From positions 1 through 33,360 of the forward strand of contig JAOXSH010000108.1 in NCBI GenBank assembly GCA_025800145.1: a stretch of 33,360 bases of DNA, given 5' to 3'. How positions within the stretch are numbered: the first letter of the stretch is position 1; each line of letters starts with the position of its first letter. A program made the translations under genes and the position numbers. The DNA is from Cohaesibacter sp. GTDB lineage: Bacteria > Pseudomonadota > Alphaproteobacteria > Rhizobiales > Cohaesibacteraceae. The notes beneath the pieces were generated by a model, which saw nothing but the letters and a program-made list of their open reading frames with translations, was not told the origin of the DNA and did no database searches. Shown here piece after piece: positions 15,706-22,304 of the stretch.

Positions 15706-15933
15706 AATAATACCAACGGCATGAAAGATTACCCCGCTAGAGCATTTTGAATGAACACGTCGTTATTCAAAATGCTCTCGTTTTTGTTTCTAAGCATATT
15801 TTTGTCCGAAAACCGCACACACTTTTCGAAAAATATGCTCTAATCTGCCCAAACAATATGGCGGAAGCCATGAGAGGCCTCCGCCATATCAGCAGACCAG
15901 AACATGACCATCTTTCATGCCGTTGGTATTATT
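15706..15933. mobile_element. MITE-like element with perfect 24-bp terminal inverted repeats
   Basis: Bases 15706-15729 are the exact reverse complement of 15910-15933. Inside are three further palindromes: AGAGCATTTTGAAT with its complement (15739-15752/15765-15778), the REP-type AGCATATTTTT...AAAAATATGCT (15793-15839), and ATATGGCGGA/TCCGCCATAT (15856-15865/15880-15889). No coding sequence is evident. It sits between the convergent genes rmd and tctA, and the right repeat supplies the tctA stop codon, so it may also act as a two-way terminator. A target-site duplication cannot be resolved because the ends read AATAAT...ATTATT. Confidence 0.85.
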
Positions 15934-17440
15934 CGTCATCCTTTGTTCGTGTGGCATTTTTTCGAGACATCCAAAAAGGTACCACTATGATCAAGGCCGC
16001 CAGACAATAGAGCACCTGGCTGTTTGGAGATATGATCAGGATCGACCAATCTCCATCCGAGATGGATAAAGCGCGTCTGAGATTATCTTCAAACAAATGC
16101 CCAAGAACAAAGCCAAGAATGATCGGTGCGAGAGAAAATTGCAGCTTTCGCAATATCCAGCCAAACAACCCAAAACCAATGATCATGTATAGATCAAACG
16201 GATTACCCACGACGGAATAAACACCGATAAAAGCTAACACCGCGATCAGTGGTGTCAAATATTGTTGCGGAATGGTCAGGAGCCGGGCAAACAGCCCCAC
16301 CATTGGCAAATTGATGATCAACAAGGCAATGTTGCCGATATACATGGAGGCAATGAGACCCCAGGCAATTTCCGGACGTTGCTCGAACATCAATGGGCCT
16401 GGCTGTACATTGAACAACATCAAGGCTCCCAGAAGAATTGCAGTCGTTCCAGATCCGGGAATCCCCAGCGTTAGCATAGGAACCATAGCACCGCCAGCAG
16501 CTCCATTGTTGCCTGCTTCAGGCGCAGCCAGGCCACGAGGATCACCCGTACCGAATTTATCACCATCGCTTCCAGCAAGGCGTTTTTCCGTCCCATAGGT
16601 GACAGCCGAAGCCACAGACGCCCCAGTGCCGGGCAAGACACCGATAAAAAAGCCGATCAACGAAGAGCGAAGGATTGTCCACCTGATCTGTATCAAATCC
16701 GCCATGGAAACAAAACTCTTGCCGATGGGTAGCAACTTAAGCTTGCCAGTCACCTGTTGTTCTACCAGATGGATCAACTCTGCCATACCGAAAAAGCCGA
16801 TGACCACAACAAGGAAATCAATACCGGCCAGAATGTCGGGAATGCCGAACGTATAGCGAGCAACACCGGTATTGGCATCAATGCCAATGGTGGCCAGCAT
16901 CAGACCGATTAGCGCACCAAGCAACGTCTTGACCGGGTTTTTGCCAACCAGAGAAGACAGGCTGGCAAAAGCAAAAACCATCAATGCAACATAATCAGAT
17001 GGAGTGAAGGTAAGCGCAAATTTGGCCAGAAACGGGCCGAACAGGGACATCAGAATAACGGCAATTGTTCCGCCTACAAAGGACGCGATAGCCGATAAGG
17101 AAAGAGCCCGACCGGCTTCTCCACGCTTGGCCATTGGATTGCCATCCAATGTCGTCATTACCGCTCCTGCATCACCAGGTACATTGAGCAGGATGGAGGA
17201 AATGCGCCCACCATATTCGGCGCCATAATAAATACCTGCCAACAGGATCAGCGCGGATTCTGCAGGCAAGCCAAGGCTGTAAGCAATCGGCAACAGAATG
17301 GCGACCCCATTGATGGGGCCTATGCCGGGCAAAGCCCCAATCAGGGTTCCGCAAAAGCAACCGATCAAGACCAGCATGAGATTGAATGGAGCAAGCGCAA
17401 CGCCAAAGCCATTGGCCAGACCAGTAAGAATATCTGCCAT
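15929..17440 (-). CDS. tctA: Tripartite tricarboxylate transporter large membrane subunit
   Basis: Product of 503 residues with about 11-12 membrane segments. I chose ATG 17440 (MADILTGLANGF), with GAGGG seven bases upstream; the frame runs open further. Family signatures are GALPGIGPINGVAILLP near the N-terminus, GRISSILLNVPGDAGAVMTTLDG, GVLPGTGASVASAVTYGTEK and GIPGSGTTAILLGAL. It is the main sodium- or proton-coupled permease of the TTT family for citrate-like carboxylates. It follows tctB by 10 bases. Its stop codon lies within the terminal repeat of the MITE at 15706-15933. Confidence 0.95.
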   Translation of the reverse strand: MADILTGLANGFGVALAPFNLMLVLIGCFCGTLIGALPGIGPINGVAILLPIAYSLGLPAESALILLAGIYYGAEYGGRISSILLNVPGDAGAVMTTLDGNPMAKRGEAGRALSLSAIASFVGGTIAVILMSLFGPFLAKFALTFTPSDYVALMVFAFASLSSLVGKNPVKTLLGALIGLMLATIGIDANTGVARYTFGIPDILAGIDFLVVVIGFFGMAELIHLVEQQVTGKLKLLPIGKSFVSMADLIQIRWTILRSSLIGFFIGVLPGTGASVASAVTYGTEKRLAGSDGDKFGTGDPRGLAAPEAGNNGAAGGAMVPMLTLGIPGSGTTAILLGALMLFNVQPGPLMFEQRPEIAWGLIASMYIGNIALLIINLPMVGLFARLLTIPQQYLTPLIAVLAFIGVYSVVGNPFDLYMIIGFGLFGWILRKLQFSLAPIILGFVLGHLFEDNLRRALSISDGDWSILIISPNSQVLYCLAALIIVVPFWMSRKNATRTKDDE

Positions 17441-17450
17441 GTTCAGGCCC

Positions 17451-17891
17451 TCAGAGAAATGCGTCCAATAGGCCGGACGGCAGGTTAAGTTCGAGAAGTT
17501 TGGCGCATAGGAAATATCCCGCAATACCGGTTACAAGGCTGAACAAAAGTGCTTTTTTCCATTCAGCTCCCAGGATGGAAGCAAAGATCGCACAAAACAA
17601 AATCGTTGAGATAATGAAGCCCAATCCCTCATAAAGCGCCGAATAGGCAGACAGAAGAACCAATACGATGCCGATGCGCAACAAGGTCTTTTTTGCAAGA
17701 GACAACTTGGCAACATCGGGTTTCCAGATCACTGCCAGACAACATAGGACAGCAACAACAGAGAGAATTTGCGGCCAGCTTTCCGGTCCCAATGGGTCAT
17801 ATTGAAACGGGGCCTTGATCACGGTGAAGGCGAGAAATCCATAAGCTCCGGCAATCACCAGTGCGAATATACTGTATATTCGATCAATCAT
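17451..17891 (-). CDS. tctB: Tripartite tricarboxylate transporter small membrane subunit
   Basis: Product of 146 residues with four hydrophobic segments, the size and layout of TctB (DUF1468). GPESWPQILSVVAVLCCLA is typical of the first loop and second helix. The start ATG has GGGAG seven bases upstream. It lies between tctC and tctA in the same operon, and forms the membrane complex with TctA. Confidence 0.92.
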   Translation of the reverse strand: MIDRIYSIFALVIAGAYGFLAFTVIKAPFQYDPLGPESWPQILSVVAVLCCLAVIWKPDVAKLSLAKKTLLRIGIVLVLLSAYSALYEGLGFIISTILFCAIFASILGAEWKKALLFSLVTGIAGYFLCAKLLELNLPSGLLDAFL

Positions 17892-17972: not shown

Positions 17973-18941
17973 TTATTTGATCAGGCCTGCCTCTTTGGCA
18001 ATCTGGCGCAGTTCGGCAATCCGCTCCTTCACGGAGTTATCAAGCTCTGACCCGGCAAGGTTGAGCGGCATCAGGCCCTTGTCTTTCTGGATCTGGGTAA
18101 ATTCGGCCGTCTTGTAGGCTTTCTCGAATGCATCCACCCATTGCTTATAAGCATTATCAGACACATTCTTACCCATATAGAAGCCACGCATAATGGTCCA
18201 TTCCGCGTCATAGCCCAACTCCTTCGCTGTTGGATAGCTATCGAACGGAGCAGGCAGGCGATCAGGAGACATGACAGCCAGAATACGCATGGAGCCCGTT
18301 TCCAGATGAGCAGTCATCTCGCCAACATCACCCATATAAACACCAATGGAGCCACCCAGCAGCCCGGCAATCGCATCACCACCGCCGTCATAGGCAACAT
18401 AACGCATCTTTTTTGGCTCTTTTGAAACAGCGCGAAGCAACAGGGCAGCTTTCATCCAATCCTGAGATCCAACGGACCCTCCGGCCCCCACAACCACTGA
18501 CTTCTCATCTTTCTTGAATTCGGCCATGAGATCATCAAGAGTTTTGAACTTGCTGTCTGCCTTGACGACCACCGCGCCGAAATCGGCCCCGGCTGTCGCC
18601 AGAAAGCGCACGTCATTCTCGGTCCATTTGCCATATTTTCCCACTGCAATATTAAGCAGCGAGCCAGACGAGAAGGCAACAATCGCATTGGGGTCTTGCG
18701 TGCGGGTCGTGTTAAACTGATTGATGGCAACGGCACCGACACCCCCTGGCATGAAGGTAACCTGCATCGGCTTGGCCAGCTGGTCCTGAACACCGGTTTG
18801 CGCTATACGGCAGGTCAGATCAAATCCGCCGCCAGGCTTGGCTGGCGCAATACATTCCGGTTTCTTGATCTCAGCAGACTGAGCAACACTGCTCATCAGA
18901 GCTGCAACAGCCATAGCGGATGCAATCATAAAGACTTTCAT
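17973..18941 (-). CDS. tctC: Tripartite tricarboxylate transporter periplasmic binding protein
   Basis: Product of 322 residues. A signal peptide covers about residues 1-22 (MKVFMIASAMAVAALM, cleavage after AQSA). The mature protein opens with ECIAPAKPGGGFDLTCR, the Bug/TctC carboxylate-binding loop, and has FMPGGVGAVAINQF and GAGGSVGSQDWMKAALL, which frame the ligand in this family. It has a strong ribosome site (GGGAGG). It captures a tricarboxylate or related dicarboxylate in the periplasm and delivers it to TctBA. It is divergent from tctD across 186 bases that hold the probable operator. Confidence 0.94.
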   Translation of the reverse strand: MKVFMIASAMAVAALMSSVAQSAEIKKPECIAPAKPGGGFDLTCRIAQTGVQDQLAKPMQVTFMPGGVGAVAINQFNTTRTQDPNAIVAFSSGSLLNIAVGKYGKWTENDVRFLATAGADFGAVVVKADSKFKTLDDLMAEFKKDEKSVVVGAGGSVGSQDWMKAALLLRAVSKEPKKMRYVAYDGGGDAIAGLLGGSIGVYMGDVGEMTAHLETGSMRILAVMSPDRLPAPFDSYPTAKELGYDAEWTIMRGFYMGKNVSDNAYKQWVDAFEKAYKTAEFTQIQKDKGLMPLNLAGSELDNSVKERIAELRQIAKEAGLIK

Positions 18942-19038
18942 ATTTTCCTCCCGATTGAGCCCCAGCCGGTTTCATCCGGCGCAAGTGAGCCATTTCTTCC
19001 TGATTTCATTCCATTAGGAGGCACCCTAGTGAGGCAAA

Positions 19039-19088
19039 CTGACAGCGCCTTGACCCGAGCCTGACAGGAAGCTGACATCGCTCCGACA
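19039..19088 (+). promoter_or_regulatory. Five hexamers at exact 11-bp period, probable TctD operator
   Basis: CTGACA (19039), TTGACC (19050), CTGACA (19061), CTGACA (19072) and CCGACA (19083) start exactly 11 bases apart. Direct repeats with 11-bp spacing are the usual binding pattern of OmpR/PhoB-family regulators, and TctD belongs to that family. The array lies between divergent tctC and tctD, 40 bases before the tctD start. Confidence 0.75.
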
Positions 19089-19127
19089 TAGCTGGTCAGG
19101 CCCGCATGCATTGGCTAAAGTGAGGAT

Positions 19128-19799
19128 ATGAGAGTGTTGCTTGTTGAGGACAATCAGGCGCTAGCCGAGACGGTTATCGAGCGCTTCAAGAAGGAAGGCC
19201 ACGTCATTGATCACGAAAGTGATGGAGACGAGGCCAATGATCTCTTGCGCCACAAGCATTTCGATCTGATCCTGCTCGACATCAATCTGCCGGGTAAAAA
19301 CGGATTCGAAGTGCTGCGCTCTCTGCGTGCCCGCAAACTTGATACGCCTGTGCTGGTTCTATCCGCCCGCTCCGAGATTGACGACAGGGTTGTGGGGCTG
19401 GATGCAGGGGCAGATGACTATCTCACCAAGCCATTTGATTTTCGCGAGTTGATCGCCCGCTGCCGGGTGCTTGCCCGGCGCAAATCCGGCCATGCCAGAA
19501 ACCTTTATGAAGTGGGCAATTTCTCCTTTGACTGGGGCGCGAAGCAAGCCAATGTGAATGGTATGGATATTCAGCTGCGCAACAAGGAGGTACAGCTGTT
19601 GGAAATGTTCTTGACCAATCTGGGCCGGGTGCTGACAAAAGAAGAAATAGCCGACAAGATCTACAGCTTCGAAGAGGCACCCAGTTTGAATGCAGTCGAG
19701 CAGATCATCGCGCGTCTACGAAGAAAAATGGATGGCTCCCCCTTCCTTCTCAAAACTGTGCGCGGCCTTGGATATATCGCCCAGATGGATGATGTATGA
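19128..19799 (+). CDS. tctD: OmpR-family response regulator of tricarboxylate transport
   Basis: Product of 223 residues. The receiver domain has the acidic pair in LLVEDNQ, phosphorylation site Asp51 in LILLDINLPG, and the conserved Lys in DDYLTKPFD. The C-terminal winged helix has NKEVQLLEMFLTN, VLTKEEIADKIY and ARLRRKM, with KTVRGLGYI at the end, all standard for OmpR/QseB-type regulators. GAGG precedes the start. It is coupled to the kinase gene by ATGA and lies next to tctCBA, so control of that operon and of its own is a strong inference. Confidence 0.93.
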   Translation: MRVLLVEDNQALAETVIERFKKEGHVIDHESDGDEANDLLRHKHFDLILLDINLPGKNGFEVLRSLRARKLDTPVLVLSARSEIDDRVVGLDAGADDYLTKPFDFRELIARCRVLARRKSGHARNLYEVGNFSFDWGAKQANVNGMDIQLRNKEVQLLEMFLTNLGRVLTKEEIADKIYSFEEAPSLNAVEQIIARLRRKMDGSPFLLKTVRGLGYIAQMDDV

Positions 19800-21244
19800 G
19801 CCCCCCTCATATACAAAAATCTCCACCACAGAAATCCATGCGTCAACGCCTGCTACTGGGCATGGCTGCTGGGTTTCTGCTCATTCTGGCGCTGCTGTCC
19901 ATCGGCTTCTGGAGCTATGCGCAACAAGCCGCCAATGCATCATATGACCGCCTGTTACGGGGAGCTGCTCTCTCCATTCTGGAACGCATCTATCTCAGTG
20001 GCGACAATGTGCGCGTAGACATTCCCTATTCTTCTCTGGAAACCCTTGGCCTTGCCAAGGATGATCGCATTTTCTATCGCATTTTCACCCAAGACAATGT
20101 CACCATCACCGCCTCTCACGCCCTTGTACCAGCAATCAACTATCAGCCCAAGGAAACACCGGTCTATTGGGAGGACTGGTTCAGTGGAGAGCCCGTTCGC
20201 TTCATGCAACAGGCCCGTTTGCTGACAGGCAATCGCAAATCAGTCTGGGTCATTGTGCAACTGGGTCAGACACGGATCGCCCGCAATGACATGATGCAGG
20301 ATTTCTTCTGGCGAGGCTTTATCGTTGCACTCTTCATCACCTGTGTCGGGCTGTTCTTCGTGTGGATCGGCATCAACCGCGCCCTGCATCCGCTCATTGA
20401 TATCGAACGGGATTTGCGCAAGCGTGATATTTCCGATTTCACGCCTCTCAAAGCCACCCCGCCGCGCGAAGTTGCCAGTCTGATCTCCTCCATCAACGGC
20501 TTCATCTTCCGACTGAAAAACAACCTCGACAATTCACAAATCTTCATCGCCGATGTTACTCATCAGATCAGAACCGCCTTGTCAGCTTTGCAAGGCCAAC
20601 TGGAGCTGGCAGGGGAGGAACTGGATCCTCAAAATCTACAAGACCGGTTGGAGAGAGCGAAGAAGCAGTCGAAACATACCATCCACCTGACCAATCAGTT
20701 GCTGTCCCATGCCATGGTCATCCATCGCGCCGACCATCAGGTGGTCTCGGACCTTCATCTGATTTCCGTGTTGAAAGGATCACTCGAACACATCATTCGC
20801 GATCAGGTGAAATCGGACATTGAATTCTCGCTATCCATCGATCCCAAACTGGAGAGAGACAAAGGGGTCGATCATGAGGCCGATCTCATTACCGGGGATG
20901 AAATTTCCATTCGTGAGGCCATCCGTAACATCATAGACAATGCCATAAAGCACGGCCCCAAAGACAACCAGATCGACATTTCCCTTTTCACCAGCAATGA
21001 TCAGATCGTCCTGAAGGTGGATGATGCTGGCCCCGGTATTCCTTGCGCAAAACGGGACAAGGCAATCGAGCGGTTCTATACCACAATGCCGGAAGGAGAA
21101 GGAACAGGCCTCGGGCTCAGCATCGTTCATCAAGTAGCCCTCAGCCACACAGCCAAATTGTCCCTGTCCTCTTCCCCCAATGGTGGACTTGGGGTGAGTT
21201 TGAGTTTCACAAGAAAGTCAGGGGAGCAAGATGCAGAAAACTAA
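19796..21244 (+). CDS. tctE: TctE-like sensor histidine kinase
   Basis: Product of 482 residues. Two membrane segments, about 20-41 and 174-194, bracket a periplasmic sensor domain of the 2CSK_N type. After a HAMP-like linker comes the H-box with His256 (VTHQIRTALSAL). The ATPase domain shows the N box IRNIIDNAIKHG, G1 DDAGPGIP and G2 GTGLGLSIVHQV. It would sense periplasmic tricarboxylate, directly or through a binding protein, and phosphorylate TctD. Its end overlaps the next gene by 14 bases. Confidence 0.92.
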   Translation: MSPPHIQKSPPQKSMRQRLLLGMAAGFLLILALLSIGFWSYAQQAANASYDRLLRGAALSILERIYLSGDNVRVDIPYSSLETLGLAKDDRIFYRIFTQDNVTITASHALVPAINYQPKETPVYWEDWFSGEPVRFMQQARLLTGNRKSVWVIVQLGQTRIARNDMMQDFFWRGFIVALFITCVGLFFVWIGINRALHPLIDIERDLRKRDISDFTPLKATPPREVASLISSINGFIFRLKNNLDNSQIFIADVTHQIRTALSALQGQLELAGEELDPQNLQDRLERAKKQSKHTIHLTNQLLSHAMVIHRADHQVVSDLHLISVLKGSLEHIIRDQVKSDIEFSLSIDPKLERDKGVDHEADLITGDEISIREAIRNIIDNAIKHGPKDNQIDISLFTSNDQIVLKVDDAGPGIPCAKRDKAIERFYTTMPEGEGTGLGLSIVHQVALSHTAKLSLSSSPNGGLGVSLSFTRKSGEQDAEN

Positions 21245-22304
21245 ATCAGGATCATCAACGCTCTGGCTGTTGTCACTACTCATGCTCATTTGTGTGCTCA
21301 CAAATCGGCCTGCCTCGGCGCAAACGAAATTGCACATCCATAGCGCAACCGACACGACTGCCATTCAAAATCTGATCGCCCGGTTTGAAGAGCTGAACCG
21401 GGATATTGACGTCATCTATCACGAATATAACACCAACCATCTGTTTGACACTCTTATGCGTGCCCCGCGTTCACCAGACGCAAAAATCGATCTTGTCATA
21501 AGCTCAGCCATGGATTTGCAGGTAAAATTGGTCAATGAAGGGCTAGCCAGTCCCTATCAATCAGATGCAACATCATCGGTTCCGGGTTGGGCCAGCTGGC
21601 GCGACGAGCTATATGGCTTTACCTATGAGCCTCTGGTGCTGGCCTATAACAGGCAGGCCTTTGAGAACAATGCCCTGAAGCTACCCTCCTCCCACTCGGA
21701 TCTTGCAGATTTGCTGGGCTCCAATACAGAGACCTTCTCGGGAAAGGTTGGCACTTATGATATCAATCGTGCTGGGTCCGGATATCTGTTCATCACACAG
21801 GACGCAATCCAGAGCGATCAGGTTTTTCGTTTGATGGAAGCTCTCAGTCGCAGTCAGACCCGCACCTATTGCTGTAGCTCGGATATTCTGGATCTGGTCA
21901 CGGAAGGAAAACTGATACTTGGTTATAACCTGATTGGCTCTTACGCCTTGGAAAAACAAAAGCAGGATGAAAGACTGGGCGTGTCGCTTTTTCAGGATTA
22001 TACCATCGTTCTGGCACGCACCGCCTTCATCTACAAGTTTGCCCCCAATCAGGCGGCAGCAGAACGCTTTTTGGAATTTCTACTCTCCCGCCAGGGACAA
22101 TCAGAAATAGCTAGCAATTCTGCACTCATTCCCATTGCACCGGAATTGCGTCAATCCAGCCTGCCAGAGAACTGGACCAGCGCCTATTTGCCCATCAAAC
22201 TTGGCATCGGCTTGCTCGCCTATCAGGACGGTATGAAGCGCAAGCACTTTCTTGATATCTGGAACAATGCACTCAGACTGCAAAATAAATACACTACACC
22301 CTAG
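21231..22304 (+). CDS. Periplasmic solute-binding protein (iron-ABC type) linked to TctDE
   Basis: Product of 357 residues with a signal peptide (LWLLSLLMLICVLTN, cleavage after PASA, then QTKLHIHSATD). The fold markers are those of extracellular solute-binding proteins: IDLVISSAMDLQVKLVNEG, GFTYEPLVLAYNRQAF and a helical C-terminus with AAERFLEFLLSRQGQ. It overlaps tctE by 14 bases with GGGGAG as ribosome site. No ABC permease or ATPase gene is adjacent. It therefore probably acts as a periplasmic ligand sensor for TctE and not as an uptake component. A Cys-Cys pair (TYCCSSD) is visible mid-protein. Confidence 0.85.
   Translation: MQKTKSGSSTLWLLSLLMLICVLTNRPASAQTKLHIHSATDTTAIQNLIARFEELNRDIDVIYHEYNTNHLFDTLMRAPRSPDAKIDLVISSAMDLQVKLVNEGLASPYQSDATSSVPGWASWRDELYGFTYEPLVLAYNRQAFENNALKLPSSHSDLADLLGSNTETFSGKVGTYDINRAGSGYLFITQDAIQSDQVFRLMEALSRSQTRTYCCSSDILDLVTEGKLILGYNLIGSYALEKQKQDERLGVSLFQDYTIVLARTAFIYKFAPNQAAAERFLEFLLSRQGQSEIASNSALIPIAPELRQSSLPENWTSAYLPIKLGIGLLAYQDGMKRKHFLDIWNNALRLQNKYTTP

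Follow-up and report, generated by a model that had tools for sequence, protein, structure and literature searches.

The tctC-tctD locus and its repeats

The window, the whole stretch of 33,360 nucleotides of Cohaesibacter DNA that we analyzed, encodes a tripartite tricarboxylate transporter whose TctA, TctB, and TctC families all exceed their Pfam cut-offs. The gene for the solute-binding receptor, tctC (17,973–18,941, Pfam TctC), lies on the minus strand with tctB (17,451–17,891, Pfam TctB) and tctA (Pfam TctA). Since the tctA open reading frame as listed (15,929–17,524) overlaps tctB, its true start is probably internal. Divergent from tctC, on the plus strand, are genes for a TctD-like response regulator (19,128–19,799; Response_reg and Trans_reg_C above cut-off), a TctE-like sensor histidine kinase (19,796–21,244) that has all three domains of its type (2CSK_N, HisKA, and HATPase_c), and a periplasmic solute-binding protein recognized by Pfam (21,231–22,304), whose gene overlaps the end of tctE. 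This last protein may serve as a periplasmic co-sensor. A solute-binding protein is fused to the kinase in proteins of ∼800 amino acids in Salipiger (L071:7156-9564) and Palleronia (L072:7122-9536), as judged by Pfam, and a gene of similar length to the fusion is present in Sulfitobacter (L076). The initial annotation had called the regulator TctD. Context and homology agree with that name, but the protein scores 177.2 bits against the NCBIfam TctD equivalog NF012023, below the 337-bit cut-off. Elsewhere in the same genome, on contig 93, a second tct system (L207) has its own TctD-like regulator and carries TGACAG-N5-CGTCAG upstream of tctC, with no TA hexamer at +10.

The 186-bp gap between tctC and tctD was said in the initial annotation to hold five hexamers at an exact 11-bp period, and we recovered all five as described: CTGACA, TTGACC, CTGACA, CTGACA, and CCGACA, starting at 19,039, 19,050, 19,061, 19,072, and 19,083. 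Read on the tctC (minus) strand, the array is a run of NGTCAG-N5 repeats in a single orientation, toward tctC. Half-site 1 (TGTCAG, 19,039–19,044) is nearest the tctC promoter and lies 10 nt ahead of a tctC -10-like hexamer. It is followed by half-sites 2 (GGTCAA, 19,050–19,055), 3 (TGTCAG, 19,061–19,066), 4 (TGTCAG, 19,072–19,077), and 5 (TGTCGG, 19,083–19,088), the last being tctD-proximal and one core position off consensus. The spacers on this strand (AGCGA, CTTCC, GCTCG, and GGCGC) are mostly G+C rich. A further GGTCAG at 19,094–19,099 keeps the 11-bp register in the opposite orientation and overlaps the candidate tctD -35.

Pairwise comparison of the units showed that they share a mean of 4.8 of 6 half-site bases against 1.3 of 5 spacer bases, and Tandem Repeats Finder reported no repeat in the tctC-tctD gap. 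When the gap was shuffled 20,000 times with dinucleotides preserved, runs of more than three GTCA/GTCG words at any period from 5 to 30 on either strand never appeared and runs of three appeared nine times at these periods, with the words themselves picked post hoc, once the array was known. Across the 3,443,943-base assembly (161 contigs, about 90% complete), this gap was the only place with at least three exact TGAC words at 11-bp spacing. We rejected an RNA element because Rfam gave nothing at gathering score within 18,900–19,200.

Conservation of the array in the regulator's clade

To place the array among relatives, we gathered loci by similarity of the regulator (for the first plasmid matches, also of the tctC-tctD DNA) and never by the array itself. 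The genome searches spanned 1,393 genomes, repeats included; a contig scan supplied outgroups in the form of the best 80 loci among the matches listed, at 37–45% identity; and on plasmids, where 205 records had a TctD-like match and 39 matched at the DNA level, 21 loci were examined. The resulting survey covered 250 bp upstream of each of 147 TctD-like loci, comprising 15 with the array, 11 orthologues from the window's genus (75–80% identical) without it, and 121 others. The 15 array loci represent nine lineages, with seven of the loci being species of one genus. Several of the counts below include close relatives, and lineage-level tests take one locus per lineage.

In a tree of 63 of the 147 TctD-like sequences, 26 form a clade with support of 100/99 that includes the window's regulator. 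Every clade locus with a divergent tctC next door has the array (14/14, in eight lineages). Only one of the 12 clade loci that lack an adjacent tctC has it, and the 11 without it are those of the window's genus. The single exception, L014 (L032, G019), carries a four-site array upstream of tctD on a 10.4-kb contig from which tctC is absent, and the hexamer at +10 there is CAAGGT. Runs of at least three exact GTCA cores were found in 13 of the 14 tctC-adjacent array loci and in 14 of all 15, the remaining one (G387) having two inside six scored sites.

Outside this clade the picture was different, as the longest run of exact sites at any of the 121 other TctD-like loci is two. A divergent tctC, detected with a profile built in this analysis, adjoins 21 of them, and two exact sites occur at eight of these 21, with seven of the eight pairs in the opposite orientation. 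Since the distant tctC-adjacent loci have at most two exact sites and mostly reversed pairs, the layout is not shared by TctD loci at large. The extended array, present in the clade together with tctC and not in the 121 others, is thus particular to this clade and accompanies its tctC. Plasmids gave a similar view on a smaller scale: among six loci with the same divergent tctC/tctD layout, the array is found in Salipiger, Palleronia, Maritalea, and Sulfitobacter and is absent from Paracoccus (L074) and Pseudochrobactrum (L075), whose regulators are more distant (39–48%). The 11-bp periodicity on which the initial annotation had staked its proposal is therefore conserved in related tct loci. 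Its assignment of the hexamers to the adjacent OmpR/PhoB-type regulator is likewise supported, with the array in 14/14 tctC-adjacent clade loci against 0/121 other loci with more than two sites, which makes the five hexamers likely half-sites of that protein.

One part of the earlier description needs amending, namely that five sites make a long array. Relatives have three to six scored half-sites, so five is no extreme. Against five in the window, chains of four were scored in Maritalea, G361, and L014, and also in Palleronia and Sulfitobacter, each with one degenerate site. In Salipiger (L071) we scored three, or four with a degenerate site added by eye. Chains of six were scored in G387, where three are degenerate, and in each of the seven species of one genus. 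At two of the plasmid loci (L072 and L076), it is the site nearest tctC that is degenerate.

The period and the core were also compared across lineages. With one locus per lineage (nine of the 15 array loci, upstream gaps only, the intergenic lengths of four genome loci being estimates), 24 GTCA pairs lie at lag 11. In 1,000 shuffles the mean was 0.07 pairs, and the count never exceeded 3 at any lag. Alignment of 37 half-sites from eight lineages gives 1.3–2.0 bits for the GTCAG columns and at most 0.41 bits for the other columns shown. The second half-site from the tctC promoter closes with A or T, not G, in five of nine lineages (the window, G361, G530, Maritalea, and L014), and this ending occurs at no other tabulated position. 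We infer that the recurrent departure from G at half-site 2 is a built-in weak half of the dimer that contacts the promoter.

The regulators of this clade also share a feature in the recognition-helix region. At the positions of residues 188–193 of the window's TctD, all 26 members have NA[VI]EQ followed by a non-aromatic residue. The same NA[VI]EQ occurs in 8 of 37 other TctD-like proteins shown, mostly with Y next. The combination is a possible, though not exclusive, specificity marker.

Geometry toward the two predicted promoters

Upon analysis of the DNA between the array and tctC, we predict a tctC -10 element, TAGGGT, on the minus strand at 19,023–19,028, 10 nt past half-site 1, with the array in the place of a clear -35. 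Taken singly such hexamers are weak, and this one matches TATAAT at three of six positions. In eight loci, one per lineage, the hexamer that follows the last half-site by 10 nt has a mean of 3.0/6 TATAAT matches, the best of 25 offsets. None of 20,000 letter shuffles reached this score at +10 (P about 1e-4 when all 25 offsets are allowed for), the rule having been spotted by eye in these same loci ahead of testing. L014 was omitted because no tctC adjoins its array. When chain ends were instead taken from the scored search (L071 at three sites), +10 still ranked first of 32 offsets, with a mean of 2.88. A scan for conventional -35/-10 promoters with a promoter matrix found no consistent -35 for tctC among the loci scanned, and we rejected such a promoter for tctC on these grounds. 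As far as its letters tell, the spacing from the array end to the -10 is that of the Pho-box layout. Farther downstream, GGGAGG at 18,947–18,952 (minus strand) reads as a likely ribosome-binding site for tctC. Because the NGTCAG repeats point toward tctC and stop 10 nt short of a -10-like hexamer, the main target is probably tctCBA.

On the opposite side, a -10 for tctD is predicted at 19,116–19,121 (TAAAGT, plus strand), 12 nt before the ATG, with a weak candidate -35, TGGTCA, at 19,093–19,098 (plus strand), 17 nt before the -10, scored with the same matrix. A -10-like hexamer ∼12 nt ahead of the tctD ATG is seen in nine lineages, occupying the same place as in the window in L169, L170, L177, L071–L073, L076, and L014. 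The hexamer at -12/-13 has a mean best match of 3.44/6, versus 1.85 in the 121 others, a score found in 0/20,000 letter shuffles at that offset and at 1e-4 for any offset. In the seven same-genus loci looked at, the match was 2–3. Such a -10 so close to the ATG would put the transcript start at or next to the start codon, and a leaderless tctD mRNA is therefore predicted, in contrast to the window's tctC with its likely ribosome-binding site. The near end of the array lies 39–62 bp from the tctD start with its helical phase kept (R 0.88 at 11 bp, n = 8; approximate p 0.002), in a set that leaves out the off-phase L014. The initial annotation had proposed control of both tctCBA and tctDE. The geometry argues for the tctCBA part, and position and helical phase suggest the tctDE part, which makes joint control plausible.

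Within the window's genus, a shorter form of the operator-like sequence was found away from tctD. In 11 genomes, tctD lies 11–12 kb from a different tctC (39–41% identical), with citrate lyase genes in between; citC, citE, citF, citG, and citX were above NCBIfam cut-offs in the one genome G007. The tctD-tctE pairs of this genus (L033 and L203 in G007, and others) adjoin this citrate-lyase cluster, whose tctC promoter has two half-sites. No array was found upstream of any of the 11 tctD genes, so we rejected the idea that it had been kept there; it is the distant tctC that has the two-site form. A pair of half-sites at the 11-bp period, followed by N10 and TANNN[TA], is present at 13/13 same-genus tctC promoters (tctC 37–41% identical), comprising the 11 genomes with a distant tctD plus G008 and G012 (tctC 37–38%). 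A stricter half-site form matched 12 of the 13, and the pattern was composed after the promoters had been viewed. An exact-TGTC scan misses this form since one of its two half-sites is TGACAG. The strict pattern matched at none of the 15 array loci, as it demands two neighboring CAG-ending half-sites before TANNN[TA].

Searching 344,024 strand-bases of same-genus sequence with the two-site pattern gave six matches. Four were at the four tctC promoters in that sequence, and two were upstream of citC, at L203:3085 and L205:4660 (minus strand), at distances of 273 and 280 bp. The pattern was not found upstream of citC in L204 and L206 or at same-genus tctC genes of 28–29% identity (L067 and L070), and it matched at 2/16 other tctC loci. 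That the tctC promoters carry it and the tctD upstream regions do not indicates that the operator-like sequence stays with tctC in this genus. In G008 and G012 no TctD-like protein surpasses 42–43% identity, and another regulator may read the two-site operator there.

A probable operator for a TctD-like regulator

Several characterized systems resemble the array. Pho-box half-sites are TGTCA tracts with a 6-bp gap (PMC6194859), and in Escherichia coli the Pho box usually replaces the -35 (PMC4971064). As these sources describe the E. coli type, the array shares its GTCA core, its 11-bp direct repeat in one orientation, and its place at the -35 near the -10. It differs in having another regulator, a mostly G-ending half-site (NGTCAG), and three to six half-sites per operator. 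On geometry it has the TGTCA-like tract (with a variable first base), the 6-bp gap, and the -35 position, but the window's spacers are not A/T rich. The array would thus appear to work like a Pho box, although by spacer composition it is no Pho box. In cyanobacterial SphR Pho boxes, 8-bp repeats stand in tandem with 3-bp linkers between them, which amounts to the same 11-bp period, and SphR needs no fewer than three of them; these boxes differ from the array in sequence and genes (PMC1906773).

The closest functional parallels are other tct systems. In Pseudomonas aeruginosa, TctD is reported to act on tctD and opdH-tctCBA, with a TctD motif at both, and to activate opdH (PMC4513871). The gene set and the regulator family are related to ours, and the motif is described there as singular, unlike the array. 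According to a review, the regulator genes adjoin and are needed in both the BctDE-bctCBA system of Bordetella pertussis and the Salmonella tct system; Salmonella tctD is divergent from tctCBA, while bctDE runs in the same direction as bctCBA, unlike the divergent tctD/tctC here, and the relevant review passages describe no array in either system (PMC5812351).

Taken together, we consider it likely that the array serves the adjacent OmpR/PhoB-type TctD-like regulator as its operator, standing in place of the tctCBA -35. Its direct repeats of ∼11 bp share one orientation, and the neighboring regulator has receiver and winged-helix output domains. With all testable sequence features of that kind present, the array is, on sequence grounds, an OmpR/PhoB-family tandem operator. 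The same kind of row in eight other genera makes it very probably the docking site of this controller, which possibly tunes tctD from there too. In the mechanism we propose, substrate would signal through TctE to phosphorylate TctD, and phosphorylated TctD dimers would align head to tail along a single face of the helix. The dimer closest to tctC would substitute for a -35 and, in the manner of PhoB at Pho boxes, bring RNA polymerase to tctCBA, and additional dimers would strengthen occupancy through cooperativity. Because the predicted tctD promoter is situated downstream of the array's far end and in conserved helical phase with it, TctD on the array may additionally modulate tctDE.

A narrower version, overlapping with the operator reading, is that TctD binds but only the two half-sites nearest tctC count, with the others being leftovers or decoys. 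By layout, two half-sites suffice at the 13/13 same-genus tctC promoters, and the outer site in the window is off consensus. Half-sites 3 and 4, on the other hand, each keep GTCAG in eight of nine lineages (the exception being L169) while the spacers drift. We regard this version as possible but unlikely. A bolder version takes the array for a graded cooperative switch in which the steepness of induction would depend on how many dimers there are (two for most lineages, three for others, one at the citrate-lyase-linked promoter), the weak half-site 2 would delay assembly of the promoter-contacting dimer until last, and a single array would serve two unlike promoters, those of leadered tctCBA and leaderless tctDE. 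As a joint proposition this is speculative, and we doubt that all of its parts hold.

Two further alternatives give the array another reader or another target, and we find both quite improbable. In one, PhoB reads the array as a Pho box, either by itself or jointly with TctD, and tctCBA is thereby coupled to phosphate supply. The core, the period, and the -35 replacement all match a Pho box, and P. aeruginosa PhoB and TctD are reported to have common promoters, but in the same report the tctD and opdH-tctCBA promoters carried only the TctD motif (PMC4513871). The array moreover tracks one TctD clade and its tctC, and the mostly G+C-rich spacers of the window are not those of a Pho box; the uniqueness of the long array in the assembly has no bearing on ordinary two-site Pho boxes. 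In the other alternative, of equally low probability, the array mainly represses or autoregulates tctD and lines up with tctC only incidentally. The in-phase distance to the tctD start, the resemblance of the TGAC half-sites to -35 boxes in the tctD direction, and the L014 array beside tctD on a contig without tctC would fit this role. Yet the fixed 10-nt spacing is on the tctC side, and where a same-genus tctD has no tctC beside it, the array is missing there and the two-site form is found at the distant tctC. Lastly, we rejected chance or a neutral tandem duplication as having a negligible probability, given the shuffles, the uniqueness in the assembly, the unit comparison with its unshared spacers, the empty Tandem Repeats Finder result, the conservation, and the same-genus two-site form.

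In the open-licence literature we found no earlier report of this alphaproteobacterial array. Tandem arrays and TctD motifs are already known in the family, so the novelty is modest: an extended operator form of a known kind, with a clear rule and natural variants. The rule, NGTCAG at 11 bp with the last site 10 nt before the -10, predicts tct operons that a TctD-like regulator may control, and in the window's genus it also predicts citrate-transport and citrate-lyase clusters that may be under such control. The natural variants, with two to six half-sites, offer material on how the number of half-sites relates to the shape of a two-component response.
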